Of a stretch of 64,000 nt of DNA, positions 31,599 to 48,466 are shown one piece after another (the first letter of the stretch is position 1; each line of letters begins with the position of its first letter). The DNA comes from Ditibartonella choladocola. GTDB taxonomy: Bacteria > Pseudomonadota > Alphaproteobacteria > Rhizobiales > Rhizobiaceae. The translations under genes were made by a program, and so were the position numbers. Under the pieces are notes generated by a model, which was given only the letters and a program-made list of their open reading frames with translations, searched no databases and was not told where the DNA came from. The stretch is from positions 1,302,001 to 1,366,000 of the forward strand of contig NZ_CP015625.1 of the NCBI RefSeq assembly GCF_002007565.1, given 5' to 3'.

Positions 31599-31613
31599 AT
31601 CCTCATAGAGGAT
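31599..31613 (+). promoter_or_regulatory. Small hairpin in the ialB leader
   Basis: ATCCTC-ATA-GAGGAT forms a six-base-pair stem with a three-base loop, 52 bases upstream of the chosen ialB start. It overlaps an alternative in-frame ATG (31612), which would be sequestered in such a hairpin. Structure only; no function shown. Confidence 0.35.
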
Positions 31614-31665
31614 GATATTTGCCTTTCGGGATTATTTTTTGCGCATTGAAAGGATTTGCCTGATC

Positions 31666-32280
31666 ATGTCCCATAAAAGAACCTACGCTGCTATTTCCGC
31701 ATTGGCTGGTGCTGCTGCTCTACTCGTTGCGTCACATAGCACCGCCAATGCTCAGGGCATGCCTCAGGGGTGGTATAAGGTTTGCAGCAAGCAACAGGAT
31801 GTTGATGTTTGTAACACAATGAATACCGTTGTTTCCAACACCGGACAACCGCTGACGGCTGTGAATTTGGTTGAAGTCAAAGGGAAACAGAACGAAAAAC
31901 GCATCGGTATTCAGGTACCGACAGGTCGTTTTATTCCGGAAGGCGTTCATATTCAGGTCGGTGACGGCCCTGTGAAGAAGATTCCCTATGTCATCTGCAA
32001 TGGCCCTAGCTGCATTGCCAATGATACATTTGATGACAAACTTATCAATGCTATGAAAACAGGACAGAAATTGGTGGTAACAACAATCAATTTCCGTGGC
32101 ACACCAAATCCGATCGAAATTTCGCTTGACGGTTTCAGTGCTGCTTATACCGGTCCTGGCATGCAGGAGAAAGATTTTGAAGCCGAGCAAATGAAGCTTC
32201 AGAAAGCTGTTCAGGCCAAAGAAAAGCAGTTTGAAGACAAGATGCGCGCTGAACAGGAAAAAGCCAAGTCCGGCAATTGA
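31666..32280 (+). CDS. ialB: Invasion-associated locus B (IalB) family periplasmic protein
   Basis: A 204-residue exported protein. A signal peptide covers residues 1-29 (MSHKRTYAAI start, cleavage after STANA). The mature part is the IalB domain: GWYKVCSKQQDVDVCNTMN with C40 and C49, then PYVICNGPSCIAND with a second cysteine pair, likely two disulfides. The last 45 residues are a charged coiled coil. In pathogenic Bartonella, ialB contributes to erythrocyte invasion, but the family is widespread in Rhizobiales and non-invasive members exist. AAAGGA lies 11 bases before ATG 31666; an in-frame ATG at 31612 would bury the signal peptide and is disfavoured. A terminator follows. Confidence 0.92.
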   Translation: MSHKRTYAAISALAGAAALLVASHSTANAQGMPQGWYKVCSKQQDVDVCNTMNTVVSNTGQPLTAVNLVEVKGKQNEKRIGIQVPTGRFIPEGVHIQVGDGPVKKIPYVICNGPSCIANDTFDDKLINAMKTGQKLVVTTINFRGTPNPIEISLDGFSAAYTGPGMQEKDFEAEQMKLQKAVQAKEKQFEDKMRAEQEKAKSGN

Positions 32281-34042: not shown

Positions 34043-34553
34043 CTTTCCCAACAACAAACTCATCCTGTTATTGTCGCGTTCCGCATTGTCTGCGATTAAA
34101 GTTGTCGGCAGTTAAAGCTTCAGTGCGCCTACCTGATTTTTAATGATTACTGACAAGACCGTTTCATTTCTTACGACAATTTGCTCTGCTTACGACAATT
34201 TGCTTTGCTTACGACAATTTGCTTTGCTTACGACAATCCGCTTTGCTTACGACAATCCGCTTTGCTTACGACAATCCGCTTTTTCCAGAGCCATTATTTC
34301 CGGTGGCCGTCGTCAATCATGAAGGCGGTCAAATGATACCAACGTCGACTGACGATTGAGCCGCGTTAACGATGTTTTAATAAACAAGGCGAACTGGCAT
34401 ATACGCTTCTTAAACAATTATTAAAGATGTGTTAATCGGACAACAGAAAACGTTTCCGCCAAGGCGGCGAAGTCAAAAACGGGTGTTGTTCATTCAAAAT
34501 AACATATTCCGATTTTGCTTCGTCATCAGTGGCATAACAGGACGGTGTAATTG
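34043..34553. other. Intergenic region between tRNA-Lys and rlpA
   Basis: About 510 bases with no gene. It contains the six-copy 19-bp tandem array at 34170-34282 and, downstream, the rlpA promoter region. No typical T-tract terminator is seen right after the tRNA. Confidence 0.6.
34170..34282. repeat. 19-bp tandem repeat, six copies in two sequence blocks
   Basis: The unit CTTACGACAATTTGCTTTG recurs at 34170, 34189, 34208, 34227, 34246 and 34265 (last copy degrades at its end). Copies 1-3 contain AATTTGC, copies 4-6 AATCCGC, so two variant units were each amplified. No spacers separate the copies, ruling out a CRISPR array. Confidence 0.95.
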
Positions 34554-35708
34554 ATGTTGTCAGAAGCTAGAAAGAACGCGCAGAAAAAAGGCGTTGTATT
34601 TGTTCGCGGAATTGTTGTTTCAATATCCACAATGATGCTTGCGGCTTGTGCCAATCATGCAAAAGATATAGCGGCTACAGCACCAACGAAGACCGGTAGC
34701 GAGCAAGTCAAAGCCTATTCGGTTATACCTGCGACAAAGCCGGCAATCGCCCGTTTCAAGAAAACTGCAGAACGAGAGAACGGAATCCATAACAAGATCA
34801 AGGAAATAGGGGAGGTTGCCTATCTTTCTCCATCCGAAAGGGCCTATAAAAAGGTCGGGCGTGCTTCCTGGTATGGTGCGGCTTTCAATGGCCGTCTGAC
34901 GGCAAATGGTGAAATTTACGATATGCATAATCTCACCGCTGCCCATCCGACAATGCCTTTACCAAGCTATGCGCGGGTAACGAATTTGGAAAATGGAGCT
35001 TCTCTCATTGTTCGAGTCAATGATAGAGGACCTTTCGCGGCCGATCGGGTGATTGATTTGTCAAAACAGGCTGCAACGATGCTTGATTATAAAGATGACG
35101 GTTTGGCAGATGTGAAAGTGGAATATGTCGGAAGGGCGCCGATTGAAGGAAATGATAATGAATTTCTGATGGCTTCCTATAAGCCTGGCAATATTACACC
35201 GGATACATTGCTTGCAATGGCGGGTGTAAATTTGAATTCACAGGTTGCCGACAGTGCTACACAGGCGATGGAAGGCTTTGCTCCGGCATCCGTTCAAAGC
35301 ACGTACAGGCCGGAAATTATGCGTGTAACTTATCCGGAATTGCCAGAAATAGGACCTCTTCCGGCATTCAAACCGGATAATTCGCAACTGTTGGCATTTG
35401 CTGATGAAACCTCGACCAATTCACGACAGGAGGTTTTCAACAGTGTTCTGAATTCCGCAGGCAATGATAAGCCTTCAGGAAATATCATGCATTCCAAAAC
35501 CGGCGCTTCGGCAAAAACGGCAAAGCCGGTTATGAAAGGCGAGATGAACGACGCGACCCATAAAACGATTGATGATGAGAATGTCAGGAACCCTGCAAAG
35601 TCTATGAGTGATGTGGCCGAAAATAGTGGCAAAAAAGCTGATCGGGCATTGGAACTTGCATGGGCGACAGGTGTGAGCGAAGCTTTCAGCATCGGTAGTG
35701 AACATTAG
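34554..35708 (+). CDS. rlpA: Septal ring lytic transglycosylase RlpA family lipoprotein
   Basis: A 384-residue protein with a lipobox LAAC (Cys about residue 32), so probably an outer-membrane lipoprotein. The double-psi beta-barrel domain lies at about residues 100-190: GRASWYGAAFNGRLTANGE, then LIVRVNDRGPFAADRVIDLS, with the catalytic-type Asp in VNDRGPF. Members cleave denuded peptidoglycan strands at the division site. The C-terminal 180 residues are low in complexity and lack an SPOR domain that I can recognise. ATG 34554 is preferred over TTG 34551. It heads the rlpA-dac-tmk-holB-metG-tatD block common in Rhizobiales. Confidence 0.9.
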   Translation: MLSEARKNAQKKGVVFVRGIVVSISTMMLAACANHAKDIAATAPTKTGSEQVKAYSVIPATKPAIARFKKTAERENGIHNKIKEIGEVAYLSPSERAYKKVGRASWYGAAFNGRLTANGEIYDMHNLTAAHPTMPLPSYARVTNLENGASLIVRVNDRGPFAADRVIDLSKQAATMLDYKDDGLADVKVEYVGRAPIEGNDNEFLMASYKPGNITPDTLLAMAGVNLNSQVADSATQAMEGFAPASVQSTYRPEIMRVTYPELPEIGPLPAFKPDNSQLLAFADETSTNSRQEVFNSVLNSAGNDKPSGNIMHSKTGASAKTAKPVMKGEMNDATHKTIDDENVRNPAKSMSDVAENSGKKADRALELAWATGVSEAFSIGSEH

Positions 35709-35760
35709 ATACTTGAGTGAACCGTTGGTTTGTGCTGAAAACAAACCACGGAGACGATTT

Positions 35761-36924
35761 ATGCGCGCAGTCATCATCTATTTGTTTGGATCCTTTTTGT
35801 TTGGTTCTATAGCAACGCAGTCATTTGCTCAAAATTTCCAGATTACTGCCACGCAAGCGATTATGGTAGATGGCGAGACCGGCTCGATATTATACCAGAA
35901 AAGTCCCCGAACCAGATTTGAACCGGCTTCCCTTGCGAAATTGATGACGGCCGAAGTTGTGTTTCATTTGCTTGAAAGTGGAGCATTACGTGAGGACCAA
36001 CTTTTCCACATCAGCGTCAATGCCTGGCGAACAGGGGGAGCACCGTCGCGTACAAACACAATGTTTGCGCCGGTTAATAGTGACATAAGTGTGCTTGATC
36101 TTTTGCGCGGTATGATTATCGTCAACGGCAATGACGCAGCAATTGCTTTAGCCGAAGGCATTTCGGGAAGTGAAGAAAAATTTGCCGATTTGATGAATGA
36201 ACGCGCCAAAGAATTGGGGCTTAATTCGAGTCATTTTGTCAATGCAACGGGCTTGCCGGAAAATGGGCAATATACAAATGTGAGTGACGTTATCCGCTTG
36301 TCACGTCATATTGCGCATAGTTATCCAAAATATTTCAAGATTTATTCGGAACCGGAAATAAGTTGGAGCAAAATTACCCAACGTAACAAAAATCCGCTTT
36401 TTGCTTTGAATATCGGAGCCGAAGGGTTTGCGAATGCGTTCAGCGAAAGTTCCGGATTTTCGACCTCTGCCGTTATTCAAAATAATAATCGACAACTGTT
36501 TCTGGTTTTGAATGGTATTAAAAAAGAAAAAGACAGACCGGCGGAAGCAGCAAAGCTCTTCAACTGGGGAATGACTGCATTTCAATTCAAGCAGGTTTTT
36601 CCGAAAGATGTCATTGTCGGATATGCACATGTATTCGGAGGTAAAAAACCGCTGGTACCACTGTTAGTCAAGGAGCCTGTCGATATTCTGATGAATGTCG
36701 AGAAGAAGTCTGTTATATCTGCAAAAATTATCTATCATGGCCCGTTGGATGCTCCTGTAAAAGCCGACGTGGAAGTTGGAAAACTGCAAATATTGGCTGA
36801 TAAAACCGTTTTATTGGAAAAGCCGGTCTTTACCGCTGATGAAGTCGCCGAGACAGGACTTGTCGGAAAAGCCAAAGATGCTTTATATGAACTGACATTA
36901 GGTTGGTTAAGAAAATATCTTTAA
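35761..36924 (+). CDS. D-alanyl-D-alanine carboxypeptidase homologue with degenerate active-site motifs
   Basis: A 387-residue S11-type penicillin-binding protein with a signal peptide (about 1-23, ending SFAQ). The SxxK motif is intact (SLAK, S57 and K60). The second motif, normally SxN, reads NGN (122-124), and the third, normally KTG, reads ANA (224-226; bases 36430-36438) within an otherwise well-aligned segment GAEGFANAFSESSGF. The C-terminal PBP5-like domain and amphipathic tail (LGWLRKYL) are retained. ATG 35761 follows CGGAGAC; an upstream in-frame start lacks a signal peptide at the right place. Loss of KTG suggests reduced or absent peptidase activity, but the reading frame is whole. 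Confidence 0.9.
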   Translation: MRAVIIYLFGSFLFGSIATQSFAQNFQITATQAIMVDGETGSILYQKSPRTRFEPASLAKLMTAEVVFHLLESGALREDQLFHISVNAWRTGGAPSRTNTMFAPVNSDISVLDLLRGMIIVNGNDAAIALAEGISGSEEKFADLMNERAKELGLNSSHFVNATGLPENGQYTNVSDVIRLSRHIAHSYPKYFKIYSEPEISWSKITQRNKNPLFALNIGAEGFANAFSESSGFSTSAVIQNNNRQLFLVLNGIKKEKDRPAEAAKLFNWGMTAFQFKQVFPKDVIVGYAHVFGGKKPLVPLLVKEPVDILMNVEKKSVISAKIIYHGPLDAPVKADVEVGKLQILADKTVLLEKPVFTADEVAETGLVGKAKDALYELTLGWLRKYL

Positions 36925-36952
36925 TCGTTGTTTATGAAATCGGGATGTTATT

Positions 36953-37606
36953 GTGAGTGGTTATTTTTTCACATTCGAGGGCGGGGAGGGTGCTGGAAAA
37001 TCCACTCAAATCAATATAGTGGGAGAATTTCTTAAACAAAAAGGTTATGAAGTTGTAGTCACTCGCGAACCCGGTGGTACGACGGGCAGCGAGGCGATAA
37101 GGTATGTTCTCCTTTCAGGGAATGCTCAAAAGATGGGAAGGTGTTTTGAAGCTGTGCTTTTTGCTGCAGCGCGCATCGACCATATTAATGAAGTGATTGC
37201 ACCGGCCTTGAAACAGGGAAAAATCGTATTGTGCGACCGTTTTATTGATTCGACCCGCGTATATCAGGGTGATGAAAAGGACAATAATCGCTGTAAACTT
37301 GAGCTGCTCGAAAAAACAGCCATTGTCGGTTATATGCCCGATATTACATTCATATTGGATTTACCGGCGAAAATCGGAATGGCAAGAGCGGATAAACGTC
37401 GGGAAAAAACGGTAACAGTCGACCGGTTTGAAAAAGACGATCTGGCTGTTCAGGAGGCGCGAAGGCAAGCATTTCTTGAAATAGCAGCAGCTGAACCGGA
37501 ACGTTGTCGTGTTATTAACGCAAACCGTAATATTGACGAAATTGCCAAGGACATCGAACAAATTACTTTAAATTTTCTGAAAAGGAAAAATGATGCAGGA
37601 AATTGA
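36953..37606 (+). CDS. tmk: Thymidylate kinase
   Basis: A 217-residue enzyme that phosphorylates dTMP to dTDP. The P-loop FEGGEGAGKST is at about residues 8-18, the TREPGGT substrate loop at about 38-44 and the DRx motif in LCDRFIDSTRVYQG. It uses a GTG start (36953); the length and N-terminus MSGYFFTFEGGEGAGKS are standard. It overlaps holB by 17 bases. Confidence 0.96.
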   Translation: MSGYFFTFEGGEGAGKSTQINIVGEFLKQKGYEVVVTREPGGTTGSEAIRYVLLSGNAQKMGRCFEAVLFAAARIDHINEVIAPALKQGKIVLCDRFIDSTRVYQGDEKDNNRCKLELLEKTAIVGYMPDITFILDLPAKIGMARADKRREKTVTVDRFEKDDLAVQEARRQAFLEIAAAEPERCRVINANRNIDEIAKDIEQITLNFLKRKNDAGN

Positions 37607-42405: not shown

Positions 42406-43206
42406 ATGAAACTGGATTTGCAGAATGTAAAAGCCGGATATGGCAAGTTGACGATCTTGCATGATATTTCCGTCAATTTCGTCCCCGGCGAGGTGACCGC
42501 CCTTATCGGACAAAATGGTTGCGGCAAATCCACCCTTCTCAAGACAATTATGGGGTTTCTCGATTTGCAAAGAGGCTCTATCACATTGGACGGTCGGGAT
42601 ATTCGGTCTTTTCATCGAAAAAAACTTGCCCAGCTCGTTTCTTATCTTCCTCAAGAGAGCTATTGTCCCGATTATTTGACATTAGGGCAACTTATCGAAC
42701 TTTCATCTTATGCCAGAAATTCTCTATTTTCAGGACCTTCTGATGAAGATCGTCAATATTTTCATGAGGTTCTTGAAATTGTAGGGCTCGGAGACAAAGC
42801 CCATTTGCCTGTTAATTCACTCTCTGGCGGGCAAAAACAAAGAGCCTGGCTTGCTTTGGTTCTGGCGCAAAAGACCGATATGATTTTGCTTGATGAACCG
42901 GTTAACCATCTCGATGTCAAATATCAATATGCCATTTTGAAGCTGGTTCGCGACTTGAGTTGCGAACTTAAAAAAACAATCATTGTTGTTCTGCACGACA
43001 TCAATCTGGCTACCTATTTTGCCGATTATGTTGTTATGCTGAAGGCAGGTAAAATTCACGCTCACGGGCGAACGCAGGAAGTCGTAACCGAGACGAATTT
43101 GCAGCAGGTCTTCGGCATTCCGGCAGAATTATTTATCCATAACGGGCATATTATTTGCCAGCCTTATCCCGCTTCAGCCCAATCAGTTCATCATATGGAA
43201 GAATAA
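42406..43206 (+). CDS. Siderophore ABC transporter ATPase (FecE/FepC type)
   Basis: A 266-residue ABC ATPase. Walker A GQNGCGKSTLLK is at about residues 36-47, the Q-loop in SYLPQESYCPDYLT, the signature NSLSGGQKQRAWLALVLAQ at about 136-154 and Walker B MILLDEPVNHLDVKYQ. The H-loop histidine lies in VVLHDINLA. It energises the two downstream permeases. First gene of a five-gene locus in which the ATPase precedes the permeases; the next gene begins one base after its stop. Confidence 0.95.
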   Translation: MKLDLQNVKAGYGKLTILHDISVNFVPGEVTALIGQNGCGKSTLLKTIMGFLDLQRGSITLDGRDIRSFHRKKLAQLVSYLPQESYCPDYLTLGQLIELSSYARNSLFSGPSDEDRQYFHEVLEIVGLGDKAHLPVNSLSGGQKQRAWLALVLAQKTDMILLDEPVNHLDVKYQYAILKLVRDLSCELKKTIIVVLHDINLATYFADYVVMLKAGKIHAHGRTQEVVTETNLQQVFGIPAELFIHNGHIICQPYPASAQSVHHMEE

Positions 43207-43207
43207 G

Positions 43208-44218
43208 ATGTATTTTTCCAAATTCTGGTTGAGCTGCATCATCATATTTCTTGTTGTTTTCTATCTCAGCATTGCGTGGGGCGGAACTTTTTCATCTCCT
43301 TCCGAAGTTTTTCGTGTCCTGATTTCGAGGAAGCCGGAAAGCTATGAACAGGCATCCATTCTTTATCAACGCTTTCCACGCGCAATGATTGCGATTTATG
43401 CCGGTCTTATCATGGCTAGCTCCGGACTGGTATTTCAAGGGCTTATACGCAATCCCCTTGCTTCTGCGTCATCACTCGGTGTCAATGCCGGTGCGACACT
43501 TTTTGTCGTCGGAAGCGCTCTGATATTCGAGGCGAATTTAGCAGAGCAGGGGAGTGCTGCGCTACTTGGCGGGCTTTTTGGTTTTCTGCTTTGTACCACT
43601 ATTGCAAGGATTGCGGGTGTCAGCGAAAAAACAACCGGACTTATGCTCATTTTATCAGGTTCGCTCACAACTATGCTGCTCATCGGTTTAAGCAATGCAC
43701 TTCTGCTTTCTTATGCAGATAGAAGGAGCGAATTTCTTTCCTGGATAGCCGGTAATATCAACCATGCCTATATTGATCGCCTTTACGAATTCTGGTGGAT
43801 TGGTCTGATCGCACTGGTTTTTGTTTTTCTACTATCGAAGCCGCTTACGCTTATTCTTCTCGGTAACGAGAAAGCCTCCTCTATGGGGGTAAGAACGGTA
43901 GCAATTTCACGTTTCGCAATGGCATGTGCGATTGTTGCATCTTGTTCGGCAACGGCTGTGTGTGGACCAATCAGTTTCATAGGTCTTATCGTTCCCCATA
44001 TGGTCAAACCGCTTGTTGGACAGGATTTCCGGCTGACATTACCGGCATCGGCATTGATAGGTGCTATATTATGCCTGTTGGCAAGCAGTGTTTCGCAAAA
44101 TGCGTTTCAGCCTTATGTCGTCAATACCGGCATTATTCTGGATTTATTCGGTGGCATAGTTTTCATCCTTTTGATTCGGAAATTCTATGTTTCTCCCCAA
44201 AACAGGAGAGATATATGA
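43208..44218 (+). CDS. Siderophore ABC transporter permease 1 (FecCD family)
   Basis: A 336-residue inner-membrane permease with about nine to ten helices. FecCD hallmarks are RFPRAMIAIYAGLIMASSGLVFQGLIRNPLASASSLG (split as RFPRAMIAIYAG and GLIRNPLASASSLG) near the N-terminus and CGPISFIGLIVPHMVKPLVG, which contains the ATPase-coupling loop. Paired with the next permease as a heterodimer. Its stop overlaps the following ATG (ATGA). Confidence 0.95.
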   Translation: MYFSKFWLSCIIIFLVVFYLSIAWGGTFSSPSEVFRVLISRKPESYEQASILYQRFPRAMIAIYAGLIMASSGLVFQGLIRNPLASASSLGVNAGATLFVVGSALIFEANLAEQGSAALLGGLFGFLLCTTIARIAGVSEKTTGLMLILSGSLTTMLLIGLSNALLLSYADRRSEFLSWIAGNINHAYIDRLYEFWWIGLIALVFVFLLSKPLTLILLGNEKASSMGVRTVAISRFAMACAIVASCSATAVCGPISFIGLIVPHMVKPLVGQDFRLTLPASALIGAILCLLASSVSQNAFQPYVVNTGIILDLFGGIVFILLIRKFYVSPQNRRDI

Positions 44219-45276
44219 TGATGTCACGCACGCTTGACGGGCGGTTATCAATCCGCTTTTTTAACGGTAAAGAGCTTATCCTACGCAATCTCGTTACCGG
44301 ATTGTTTCTCATAATTTCGATATTCATTCTCTTTCTCATATCGTTGAACCTTGGTACGATTGACACCGGCCTTCATGACTTCTGGAGGTTGGTGAGAGGA
44401 GAGGAGATCGAACAGCAATCCTATTTTGCACTATGGGATGTGAGATTGCCACGTTTGGCTTTGGCATTCCTGATTGGTTGGTGTGTTGCTGTGTCAGGCG
44501 CTATACTACAACCGATTGCGCGCAATCCTTTGGCAGATCCCGGATTGTTCGGCATCAGCCATGGATCGCTGACAACGACCATTTTGTTACTGGCTTTTGT
44601 CCCCGCAGCCTCGCGCGTACTAATCGCATTTGCTTCCCTTGCAGGAGGGCTGGGAACAGCAATACTGTTGATTGTTCTGGTCGGTAACCGTCATGCGGGA
44701 GGTTTGGTCATTCTGTTAATGGGAATTGCCGTTGCCACAGTCTTGGCATCGGTCAACTCTTTTCTTATTCTCTACCTGCCTACCGAAGCTTCGTATAATG
44801 CATCAAGCTGGATGGCGGGGTCGCTTTTTCAGGCAAACTGGCTGAGTGTTACGGCATTTATCCCCTTATTCCTGTTCAGCCTTGTTGCAATGCTGATGGC
44901 CGGTCATTCGCTTAACCGTTATGATCTGGGAAGTGAATTGGCGTTGGCGCTCGGCGAACCGGTTATCGTTTCTCGTCCATTGTTACTCCTATTCGCGGTG
45001 CTCTTGAGTGCCGCTTCGGTGACAATTGTTGGCCCACTTGCTTTTCTCGGTATTCTTGCCCCCCAACTTGCCCAATTTTTGACAGGGGCAAATGGCAGCG
45101 GCCGACTTTATCTTTCTGGCCTTGTCGGCGCCAATCTTGTCATCGGTGCCGATATTATTTCCAAAAACGCAACCACGATTTCAATGCCTCTGGGGCTAAC
45201 GACCACCATTCTGGGCGTCCCGTTATTCATCGTGGTTTTGCGACTTAGAACTCTCCGGCAATATTTTCACAAATAG
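44215..45276 (+). CDS. Siderophore ABC transporter permease 2 (FecCD family)
   Basis: A 353-residue permease with about nine to ten helices. Hallmarks are RLPRLALAFLIGWCVAVSGAILQ with IARNPLADPGLFGIS and the coupling segment VGPLAFLGILAPQLAQFLTG. Three ATGs lie in a row (44215, 44218, 44221); I chose the first because AGGAG (44204-44208) lies six bases before it and it overlaps the previous stop. A much longer in-frame ORF extending back into permease 1 is a shadow. Confidence 0.94.
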   Translation: MMMSRTLDGRLSIRFFNGKELILRNLVTGLFLIISIFILFLISLNLGTIDTGLHDFWRLVRGEEIEQQSYFALWDVRLPRLALAFLIGWCVAVSGAILQPIARNPLADPGLFGISHGSLTTTILLLAFVPAASRVLIAFASLAGGLGTAILLIVLVGNRHAGGLVILLMGIAVATVLASVNSFLILYLPTEASYNASSWMAGSLFQANWLSVTAFIPLFLFSLVAMLMAGHSLNRYDLGSELALALGEPVIVSRPLLLLFAVLLSAASVTIVGPLAFLGILAPQLAQFLTGANGSGRLYLSGLVGANLVIGADIISKNATTISMPLGLTTTILGVPLFIVVLRLRTLRQYFHK

Positions 45277-45287
45277 GGAAATATCTC

Positions 45288-46250
45288 ATGCGTATCTTAT
45301 CCTTTTTTATTTTCATGCTTGCTCTTCCATTGACAATACTTTGCAACACGGAGGCGCGGGAAGTTGTTGATACGATGGGGCGAACCGTCGATATTCCCGA
45401 CAAGCCGGATAGGGTGGTGGTGATGAGCGAGCCGGCCATCGGTGTTCCGATGATTGAACTGGGCGTTAATCCCGTCGGTAGTTTCGGTCGTGCTGATGAT
45501 GGTACTTATCAAGTCGGTGCGGACTTCATTGATATTCTGTTCGGACCCGACCAGAAGAAACCCCAAGGCATAGGAAATAATCGTCAAGTTGATCTTGAAA
45601 AGCTTTACGCGATGAAGCCTGATCTTATTATCGGCACCGAGTTCGACGTTGACAAGCTCAAGCAGCTATCTTCGGTTGCTCCGGTCTATATGCAGCATTA
45701 CACAACCGGACATCTGGATAATTTTGCGATCGAAGAAAATCTTGCGAAACTCTTCGGTAAGGAAAATGCTTTTCAAGCATTGAAAACTGATTACCAGCAA
45801 GATGTTGAAGAAACCAAAAAACAATTGCCGGAAAGTCTGGAAAACAAAACCTATCTACCCGTTATCATTATGGATCAGATCAATATTGTGGGTGAAGGAA
45901 TCGGCGTTTCCCAACCACTTAATGATCTCGGCATGAAACCGTTCGAGGTATCGAAAGATAAAACGCATTCGGATGGTTCGCCCAAAATTGTGCTGCCAAT
46001 CAGCGCCGAAGCATTCGGCTCGCTCGATCCGGATATTCTCGTCGTTATCATCAATTGGGGAGCACCTGATAAAAGTGCTGAAGCCACACGCGAAGCTCTG
46101 AACAAACTGGTTCCGGGATGGGAAAATTATATGAAGCCGGCACGTGAAGGACGTGTCATTTATCTCGATGGATCGAAAGTTTTCACCCCCAGCTTCAAGA
46201 GTGCGCACTACACTTTAAGCGAGGTTAGAAACTGGGCAAAAACCAAATAG
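45288..46250 (+). CDS. Siderophore-type periplasmic binding protein (FecB/FepB family)
   Basis: A 320-residue periplasmic protein with a signal peptide (about 1-21). The class III binding-protein pattern is clear: REVVDTMGRTVDIPDKPDRVVV at the mature N-terminus, a DLEKLYAMKPDLIIG segment, and the connecting long helix (AFQALKTDYQQDVEETKKQL). Some residues before the MGRTV region suggest no lipobox, so it is likely soluble. It captures a ferric chelate released by the TonB-dependent receptor encoded next. Ligand identity cannot be read from sequence. Confidence 0.93.
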   Translation: MRILSFFIFMLALPLTILCNTEAREVVDTMGRTVDIPDKPDRVVVMSEPAIGVPMIELGVNPVGSFGRADDGTYQVGADFIDILFGPDQKKPQGIGNNRQVDLEKLYAMKPDLIIGTEFDVDKLKQLSSVAPVYMQHYTTGHLDNFAIEENLAKLFGKENAFQALKTDYQQDVEETKKQLPESLENKTYLPVIIMDQINIVGEGIGVSQPLNDLGMKPFEVSKDKTHSDGSPKIVLPISAEAFGSLDPDILVVIINWGAPDKSAEATREALNKLVPGWENYMKPAREGRVIYLDGSKVFTPSFKSAHYTLSEVRNWAKTK

Positions 46251-46348
46251 GGATATTTTATTTCACTATATAAAATTAATGTTGACTTAGTTTATATCAT
46301 GAGTAATAAAGTCATATTTTCTTTGTTTGCCTAAAAAGGTTCCATCCG
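46251..46348. other. Spacer between binding protein and receptor genes
   Basis: A 98-base AT-rich gap with TTGACT (46284-46289 region) and TATATC/TAATAA elements downstream, enough room for a separate receptor promoter. TGA-N11-TCA is present, but the RirA consensus needs nine bases between, so I do not call a RirA box. AAAAAGG precedes the receptor ATG. Confidence 0.35.
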
Positions 46349-48466
46349 ATGTCAAAAGTGTTATCGAAAACTAGGTTTCTTCTATCGTCAGCCCATTACC
46401 AACTTTTTTGCGGGGTTATACTGGTATCGTCTGCAATTCCCTGTGCTTTCGCTGAGGATGGCAATGAACAGAAACAAGATCAGTCCAACACAACTGTATT
46501 GCAAAAGGTTGTTATCAGCGGTGAAAAATCACTGCGCTCGCTTCAGCATACTGCCAGTTCGGTCAGTGTGCTTAGCAGCGAAACAGTTGCGGAAAGACCG
46601 GCGGTGACAACGCTGACAGATCTTTTAAAGGGTACACCGAACGTACTTTATACGAACGACAGTGATGCGCCGATTATCCGCGGTGTCGACACCAAAGGCC
46701 CATTGGTTAAAGGCAATGCTTATCTGGCCAATCCTATACCTCGCGCCACGATCAGCGTTGACGGCCGCTATCTGAGTGCGGGCGAATTCGGAATTGGTGC
46801 AGCGCCAATTTGGGATGTCGAATCCGTCGAAGTATTCCGCGGCCCGCAGACCACAACACAAGGGGCAAACGCGATCGCCGGTGCCATTGTCATCAAGACG
46901 AAAGATCCGACATTTACGCCTGAAGCGGAAATACAAACTCTCTATGGCACCAGACAACAAAAACGTGGCTCTCTTATGGCTTCGGGGCCGATTACCAAAG
47001 AACTTGCCGGACGTATCGCCCTTGATTATAGCGGCCGTGATACTTTCATAAAATATACCAATCCCTACTTTCTGGATTCGGAAATGGATAACGACCCTCG
47101 GAATGTCAACGGTCGTGTAAAATTGCTTTGGCAGCCTTCCGAAATACCGGGATTGGAAGGTAAGCTCACCTATTCACACATGGATTCACGGCGTCCGGCT
47201 TTCGAGATTGCCTCACACCCTTATGACCAACTTCATGATACACGTAATAGCACAGACAACATCCAGACAAAAACCGATGTCGGTGTTTTCGACGTGAAAT
47301 ATGATCTTGGAAACACGGTTATTCTTTTTAACGAGTTGCAATATTCCAATGGCACTTACGATTATAATTTCGGGCGATCCTTCAATGGTACCGCATCAAG
47401 AGATTATGACAATATATCGAACGAATTCCGTGTCAACTTTGGTGATGAAACAACGACTCTAAGCGGCCTTGGCGGCGTTTTTTATTCAAAAAGCAACAAC
47501 GACAACCATATGTTACATGATTTTGCGTCGACTGACTTTACCGTCGATCAGGATAGTGTCGGTGTCTTCAGCGAGTTGACATACCGTTTTGCTGAAAAAT
47601 GGGCTCTGACAGGTGGTCTACGGTATCAATATGACGGCATCCGACATGACGGTGTTGCAAGCTATGTTCCCGGTGTTCGCCATATTTATGACGAAAGTTT
47701 TGACGCTGTACTGCCGAAGATCTCGCTGTCCTATGATATTCGTGACGATATAACCGTCGGTGTTATGGCATCTCGCGGCTACCTTCCGGGTGGTACAGGT
47801 TTGAACTTCTCAGGCAAACGTTATTATAATTTCGACGCTGAAAAAGCCTGGAACTATGAAATTTTCTCCCGTATTACAGTGCTTGATAGCAAGCTTTCAT
47901 TTACGCCGAATATTTTCTACACGCGTTATACGGACTCGCAGCGTTCTGTTACCGATTATATGAACGGCAAACAATTCGGTTCCATCATTGTTAATGCCGA
48001 TGAAGCAAAAACATATGGTGCAGAATTGGGGGCAGATTATCAGCTTCTCGATAACCTCCTATTGCGTGGTGGACTTGGGCTTCTCCACACAGACACCAGT
48101 GAATTCGGTGACACACGCGGCAATGTCTTTGACGGGAAAAAATTTGCAAAAGCTCCCGGTTACATGTTCAATGTCGGTGCCGATTGGGACATCATCGAAA
48201 ATCTTCGCTTGAGCGGCGATGTCCGTTATACCGATGATTATTATTCAACGGATGATAACGATCCTGCTTTGCGCGTCGGTTCTTATGCAATTGCCAATAT
48301 GCAGATTTCATATAAACCGAACGATCATATGGAGATTTTTGGCTATGCGAAGAATTTGTTTGACGAACGTGTACCAACGGAAAAAAACAGAGACCGTGTA
48401 GCCGGAATTCAGGCCTATATCACCGAACCGCGCGAATTTGGTGTCGGCCTCAAAATGAAGTTCTAA
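46349..48466 (+). CDS. TonB-dependent siderophore receptor
   Basis: A 705-residue outer-membrane receptor. A signal peptide (about 1-35, ending CAFA) is followed by a TonB-box-like TTVLQKVVISGE, a plug domain (about 60-175: TLTDLLKGTPNV, GAAPIWDVESVEVFRGPQTT, GANAIAGAIVIKTKDP) and a 22-strand barrel ending in the usual aromatic terminus (VGLKMKF). It would import a ferric chelate using TonB energy. No siderophore biosynthesis gene is present in the window, so the ligand is probably scavenged. A strong terminator follows. Confidence 0.95.
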   Translation: MSKVLSKTRFLLSSAHYQLFCGVILVSSAIPCAFAEDGNEQKQDQSNTTVLQKVVISGEKSLRSLQHTASSVSVLSSETVAERPAVTTLTDLLKGTPNVLYTNDSDAPIIRGVDTKGPLVKGNAYLANPIPRATISVDGRYLSAGEFGIGAAPIWDVESVEVFRGPQTTTQGANAIAGAIVIKTKDPTFTPEAEIQTLYGTRQQKRGSLMASGPITKELAGRIALDYSGRDTFIKYTNPYFLDSEMDNDPRNVNGRVKLLWQPSEIPGLEGKLTYSHMDSRRPAFEIASHPYDQLHDTRNSTDNIQTKTDVGVFDVKYDLGNTVILFNELQYSNGTYDYNFGRSFNGTASRDYDNISNEFRVNFGDETTTLSGLGGVFYSKSNNDNHMLHDFASTDFTVDQDSVGVFSELTYRFAEKWALTGGLRYQYDGIRHDGVASYVPGVRHIYDESFDAVLPKISLSYDIRDDITVGVMASRGYLPGGTGLNFSGKRYYNFDAEKAWNYEIFSRITVLDSKLSFTPNIFYTRYTDSQRSVTDYMNGKQFGSIIVNADEAKTYGAELGADYQLLDNLLLRGGLGLLHTDTSEFGDTRGNVFDGKKFAKAPGYMFNVGADWDIIENLRLSGDVRYTDDYYSTDDNDPALRVGSYAIANMQISYKPNDHMEIFGYAKNLFDERVPTEKNRDRVAGIQAYITEPREFGVGLKMKF

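Follow-up and report, generated by a model that had tools for sequence, protein, structure and literature searches.

Background

Low-molecular-weight PBPs are usually taken as trimming enzymes. The closest described systems, PBP5 and PBP6 of E. coli and PBP5 of P. aeruginosa, share with the protein considered here a predicted fold, the domain order, the SxxK motif and the Asn of SxN. They differ from it in that its SxN Ser and the whole of its KTG are replaced, and enzyme activity, unlike in PBP5 and PBP6, would not be expected from such a sequence. PMC2909392 describes a dead E. coli PBP5, S44G, that neither took up a septal position nor complemented, which disfavours a simple dead-enzyme scaffold in that organism. 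K213R in the same protein abolished carboxypeptidase activity without abolishing penicillin binding, to go by a title cited in PMC9430164, and that result would make binding without cleavage plausible as a first step.

DipM of Caulobacter is presented in PMC10336132 as an inactive LytM-domain peptidoglycan-hydrolase fold that regulates autolysins and also binds CrbA, a putative carboxypeptidase. The likeness is a hydrolase fold without catalysis; DipM belongs to an unrelated family, and the partners known from that source are its own. According to PMC9790009, insertions in Atu1499 (annotated as a DD-carboxypeptidase) and Atu1500 (RlpA) were both detrimental in A. tumefaciens without YejABEF. 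This is a conditional fitness phenotype, and Atu1499 is likened to the present gene by its annotation and by its locus tag beside RlpA alone. PMC7327166 lists for S. meliloti four proteins with serine peptidase domains as putative DD-carboxypeptidases. No description of degenerate motifs in an rlpA-linked S11 gene was found among the titles and abstract openings listed by searches of the open PMC library.

Here we describe such a gene in a window of 64,000 nucleotides, the whole stretch of DNA analysed, from a host genome of one contig and 2.9 Mb. On balance we favour the view that it encodes a retained, non-catalytic protein of the PBP5 fold, which might act together with RlpA in wall remodelling. 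The motif loss is old and recurrent and is not specific to this gene.

Orthologue sampling

Loci were found by searches with the S11 protein of 35761-36924 as the query, and seven residues (a pair each from SxxK and SxN, and all three of KTG) were read in 266 orthologues. Bartonella contributed 63 of these, its family otherwise 115, the remaining families of the order 49 and the class beyond the order 31; the last eight were named records (seven Pseudovibrio and one Xanthobacteraceae). All 63 Bartonella matches were used. The family sample was 115 of 229 non-Bartonella matches, chiefly from the top of the ranked list, and is biased towards sequences resembling the query protein. The order sample was 49 of 136 matches, with one or two per family, and the 31 class matches were spread down the list. 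Orthologues were chosen before motif reading, apart from some loci already seen. The order of the sampled group was taken to be Hyphomicrobiales; the current NCBI name of B. apis is Ditibartonella apis (Hyphomicrobiales, Alphaproteobacteria).

Locus and domain structure

The initial annotation placed the gene between rlpA and tmk and read SLAK, NGN and ANA as its motifs, all of which is borne out by the sequence and by alignment (Table 1). Beyond tmk come genes for a DNA polymerase III delta'-type protein and for methionyl-tRNA synthetase, and then tatD. GGAG stands seven bases ahead of the likely ATG start, and Bartonella relatives align from residue 1, so that a wrong frame or start was rejected; an alternative GTG start at 35698 falls inside the 3' end of rlpA and would overlap it. 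A promoter and terminator scan of 34300-37100 returned sites no more numerous than in shuffled sequence.

Table 1. Coordinates of the S11 gene, its neighbours and its internal features within the window
Feature	Position	Strand	Detail or basis
Motif-degenerate PBP5-type (S11) protein, dacF-like, 387 aa	35761..36924	+	ATG 35761, GGAG 35750-35753
rlpA, DPBB_1, lytic transglycosylase family	34551..35708	+	Upstream neighbour
tmk, thymidylate kinase	36953..37606	+	Downstream neighbour
Signal-peptide-like hydrophobic N-terminus ending in SFAQ	35761..35829	+	Read by eye from sequence
SxxK, kept: SLAK (Ser57, Lys60)	35929..35940	+	Sequence
Segment 86-104 (AWRTGG...TMFA)	36016..36072	+	Column entropy
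SxN, degenerate: NGN (Ser122 to Asn)	36124..36132	+	Sequence and orthologue comparison
Segment 199-212 (WSKITQRNKN region), with good conservation in every group	36355..36396	+	Orthologue alignment
KTG, degenerate: ANA (residues 224-226)	36430..36438	+	Sequence and orthologue comparison
PBP5_C C-terminal domain, PF07943	36580..36852	+	Pfam, 8.7e-16, 58.3 bits against cut-off 21.2
C-terminal helix 367-386 of the model, which may anchor the protein in the membrane	36859..36918	+	Structure model

Membership in the Peptidase_S11 (PBP5-type) family is indicated by the predicted fold and by both Pfam domains, which score above their curated cut-offs (3.5e-53 and 181 bits against 27.6 for Peptidase_S11). 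The open frame and the PBP5_C match uphold the earlier statement that the frame and the C-terminal domain are intact. None of the NCBIfam profiles matched the product above its curated cut-off: the enterobacterial carboxypeptidase equivalogs DacD, DacA and PRK10001 gave 205.8, 157.6 and 156.1 bits against cut-offs of 610, 694 and 765, and segments of the three intact S11 paralogues of the same genome likewise fell far under these three cut-offs. By sequence, P. aeruginosa PBP5 (4k91) is the nearest relative of known structure. A structure predicted from 19 sequences (mean pLDDT 84.4, pTM 0.71) gave residues 20-366 the fold of PBP5 and PBP6, with a Z score of 39.7 to 4k91_B and an rmsd of 3.7 over 342 aligned residues. 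The last 18 residues are only moderately amphipathic (hydrophobic moment 0.33, rank 47 of the 370 windows of the protein).

In the alignment with 4k91, NGN stands opposite SGN and ANA opposite KTG, and the motif set of an active D,D-carboxypeptidase is represented by SxxK, with SxN and KTG absent. The initial annotation expected activity to be lost or much changed, and its loss is what the absence of two motifs would most naturally suggest. Sequencing error at 36430-36438, which that annotation had named as a possible objection, was rejected and is very unlikely, because seven further genomes at 76-85% protein identity read the same ANA with different synonymous codons (GCG/GCA, AAT/AAC and GCG/GCC/GCT), making eight genomes with ANA. 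The closest named relatives of the protein are Bartonella apihabitans, B. apis and their kin, at 84-85% protein identity, which we take to be bee-dwelling.

Catalytic motif residues in orthologues

The full set of seven motif residues was present in 31 of 31 orthologues outside the order, in 38 of 49 in the order's other families and in 60 of 115 in the family, and in none of the 63 Bartonella sequences or the eight named records. The SxN Ser, the KTG Lys and the KTG Thr were each absent from all 63 Bartonella orthologues, two of which (L147 and L148) are interrupted by stops, while Ser57, Lys60 and Asn124 were kept in every one. Asn occupied the SxN Ser position throughout Bartonella (codon AAT in 56, AAC in seven). 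The third motif was far more variable: GFG in 42, ANA in eight, VNA in three, AFG in two, and AIA, CSG, VSG, SSG, GSG, GLG, TFG and RLG once each. The ANA first noticed is thus real, but it is only one among 12 versions of the third motif in Bartonella, and the motif loss reaches further than had been noticed at first.

The genes read were orthologues for the most part. The upstream neighbour on the same strand was rlpA at 62 of 63 loci in Bartonella, 109 of 115 in the family, 42 of 49 in the order, 27 of 31 in the class and six of eight elsewhere, and tmk lay downstream on the same strand at 63 of 63, 113 of 115, 48 of 49, 31 of 31 and eight of eight, respectively. Some of the loci without a neighbour end at contig ends (L256 and L304). 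By these neighbours, mistaken orthology (a paralogue at the locus) was rejected for the bulk of the loci.

Lys224, Ser122 and Ser57 were all kept in 130 of the 266 orthologues, one of which (L266) is without the SxxK Lys. One or more of the three was missing from the other 136, and in 135 of these Lys224 was among the missing; loss of Ser57 was never seen with Lys224 kept. The pattern suggests that the KTG Lys is almost always the first to go and that the SxN Ser comes next, or the nucleophile in certain lineages. The nucleophilic Ser57 was lost in the seven Pseudovibrio and in eleven other orthologues. The residue after KTG is His in 30 of the 31 sequences from outside the order, and Phe or Tyr in the majority of those within it. 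The Phe or Tyr also occurs in intact copies and in paralogues, so that this change is not tied to motif loss.

In Pseudovibrio (L077-L083) the nucleophilic Ser is replaced by Asn (PANLTK) and KTG reads GAG, with SAN kept, a pattern that, as read from the sequences, looks like a different route to the same loss. Extremes were seen in three loci from other families of the order (L243, L244 and L246), where the nucleophile or the SxxK Lys is gone, Tyr or Ile stands for the SxN Ser and VLA or MVG for KTG, with rlpA and tmk still at the locus. Absence of the SxxK Lys from the order rows L246 and L266 is a genuine change in the raw sequence.

Recurrence of motif loss

Losses were counted on several trees. 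A FastTree of tmk plus rlpA for 263 loci, rooted with class sequences, required 19 irreversible losses of the KTG Lys, 22 of the SxN Ser and eight of the nucleophile, and a tree of the gene itself with the motif columns removed required six, 19 and seven. IQ-TREE, run on 147 of the 263 loci, gave 14, 17 and six; it left out 55 Bartonella rows on purpose and 61 others no longer than 350 residues (27 from the class, 20 from the order, 13 from the family and one other), so that its root was four class rows only. When its strongly supported branches alone were counted, five changes remained for the Lys, seven for the SxN Ser and four for the nucleophile. An earlier tree of the gene, with 186 rows and without the order and class samples, gave two, 13 and five changes, and on it one gain and one loss of the Lys would fit too.

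Because the trees disagree, losses of the Lys are given as a range, 6-19 (two changes on the 186-row tree); the SxN Ser has a range of 17-22 and the nucleophile one of 6-8. Repeated loss is firm for both of these residues, and for the Lys the number depends on the tree. Regain of KTG was considered and is not needed, as the irreversible count for the Lys equals the fewest changes on the gene's own tree (6 and 6) and on IQ-TREE (14 and 14); on the neighbour-gene FastTree the figures are 19 irreversible losses against 18 changes.

These counts bear on the first alternative, that catalysis is changed and that Ser57 and Lys60 still form an acyl-enzyme whose altered third strand confers another specificity (an esterase, an endopeptidase or slow acylation). 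Some acyl chemistry is possible because Ser57, Lys60 and Asn124 are kept throughout Bartonella, the first two despite synonymous codon changes. Lys210, which by eye would align with Arg198 of PBP5, varies across the 266 orthologues between Arg and Lys, with His in a single case, and the penicillin binding retained by PBP5 K213R, at least as that title puts it (PMC9430164), points the same way. Against this, the nucleophile itself has been lost 6-8 times in other lineages of the same orthologous group, and Lys60 may be structural, since it is kept in all 18 sequences without Ser57. Twelve forms of the third motif within Bartonella are also unlike a re-specialised site, and we regard changed catalysis as unlikely, though the strongest of the alternatives.

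Paralogous S11 genes

A search for a second intact copy, as suggested with the initial annotation, found three further S11 genes in the same genome, all three with SxxK, SxN and KTG intact. Two of these were used as queries against 61 family genomes and the best 29 new loci were taken for each; all motifs were kept in 58 of 58, a control that leans to similar sequences because best matches to intact queries were used. Bartonella paralogues were intact in 21 of 22 cases from 11 genomes and in 30 of 30 from 30 further genomes (one each), or 51 of 52 from 41 other genomes and, with the three of the own genome, 54 of 55. The total is 112 intact S11 paralogues among 113.

The exception (L093) has Gln for the SxxK Lys (SQ) and AAS for KTG, with SAN kept, and it shows that motif loss is not confined to the rlpA-linked orthologue. 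Its genome (G002) is a 1.5 Mb Bartonella genome from which the rlpA-linked orthologue has been lost and in which only one (L110) of two S11 genes is intact.

Selection and gene loss

Among nine bee-clade genomes the mean NG86 dN/dS was 0.066 for the S11 gene, 0.175 for rlpA and 0.152 for tmk (30 of 36 usable pairs for the first, 28 of 36 for each of the others), ratios that are rough because dS is near saturation. This low value is the outcome of the comparison with relatives that had been recommended. For the gene at 35761-36924 itself, dN/dS against seven bee-clade relatives was 0.036-0.057, and the eighth value was undefined. Median values over independent close pairs were 0.097 in family members with broken motifs (10 of 12 pairs) and 0.080 in those with intact motifs (17 of 17). 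The Bartonella medians were 0.191 for the S11 gene (28 of 29 pairs), 0.234 for rlpA and 0.154 for tmk; in the broken family set tmk, at 0.063, lay below the S11 gene. By these ratios the constraint on broken lineages is close to that on intact ones and roughly that on the neighbouring genes. Among the marks of a pseudoenzyme retained for another role, the loss of catalytic motif residues and continued purifying selection are both present here.

Mean column entropies (in bits) are to be compared between segments within one group only, because group sizes and depths differ, and are given here in the order intact family, broken family and Bartonella: 0.54, 1.30 and 1.10 for the KTG strand (219-240), 0.50, 0.46 and 0.33 for segment 86-104, 1.15, 1.86 and 1.02 for PBP5_C, and 0.42, 0.78 and 0.28 for the SxN helix (115-133). 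Segment 86-104 is the most conserved of ten segments in the broken family and the second in Bartonella, where the SxN helix ranks first. The KTG strand has been released, and segment 86-104 has not.

The gene was matched in 63 of 71 Bartonella genomes and, allowing for the two copies with stops, is free of internal stops in 61. In seven of the eight genomes without a match (L375-L381) the rlpA-tmk junction is preserved but contains no intact copy, and at four of the seven there are short, weak traces of the 5' part of the gene; the eighth genome is 85% complete and has no tmk match. The gene is therefore dispensable in nine Bartonella, being gone or broken there.

Such losses are what a second alternative would predict, namely that constraint is relaxed, the paralogues suffice and an unneeded gene is decaying slowly towards loss. 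It also agrees with broken family members being more variable than intact ones in nine of ten segments, and with the broken paralogue sitting in a genome that has lost the rlpA-linked gene. The low dN/dS against the bee-clade relatives, the similar dN/dS of broken and intact family pairs and the 61 uninterrupted copies argue against it, and we consider it a little less probable than changed catalysis. The view of the initial annotation that the gene is retained rather than decaying is supported by these ratios, by the synonymous changes at ANA and by the kept synteny, with the limit that in some Bartonella the gene is decayed or gone.

Proposed role

Parallel losses, the paralogue control and low dN/dS together argue that the S11 protein of 35761-36924 is non-catalytic, and from sequence this seems quite likely. 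That it would still be an ordinary D,D-carboxypeptidase, with other residues in the KTG and SxN roles, agrees with the kept fold and most of the S11 profile, but is very improbable: throughout Bartonella the SxN Ser is missing together with both the Lys and the Thr of KTG, and the Lys position is mostly Gly (44) or Ala (11). HTG or RTG variants of KTG can be functional, but the only Arg version here, RLG (L146), is without the Thr.

Under the retained, non-catalytic reading, a periplasmic protein of the PBP5 fold would no longer be able to cleave D-Ala-D-Ala (a pseudo-carboxypeptidase), and the trimming of pentapeptides would be left to the intact S11 paralogues. The protein might instead work as a binder of pentapeptide stems or of a partner (RlpA, for example, or an active carboxypeptidase), using the conserved segments 86-104 and 199-212, and it would do so where the wall grows or divides. 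A scaffold role at RlpA or a wall site is put forward tentatively, at somewhat less than even chances; the detrimental insertions in Atu1499 and Atu1500 of A. tumefaciens speak for it, and the behaviour of E. coli PBP5 S44G speaks against its simplest form.

More broadly, and a shade more doubtfully, the rlpA-linked S11 orthologue of Hyphomicrobiales could be a non-catalytic wall-growth protein that arose by many parallel losses, the KTG Lys going first. If so, the important work in the order would already be binding and not cleavage, even in intact-looking copies, and the binding role of the PBP5 fold would be separable from the catalytic one. The order would then hold a natural loss-of-function series for wall remodelling. 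The motifs of such genes should be looked at before they are annotated as carboxypeptidases.

Other genes in the window

An IalB-family (invasion-associated locus B) gene lies at 31612-32280, about 2.3 kb upstream of rlpA. Genes for an ABC-transporter ATPase, a FecCD-type permease and a TonB-dependent receptor occupy 42406-48466, a cluster that by its family names is of the iron or haem uptake type.
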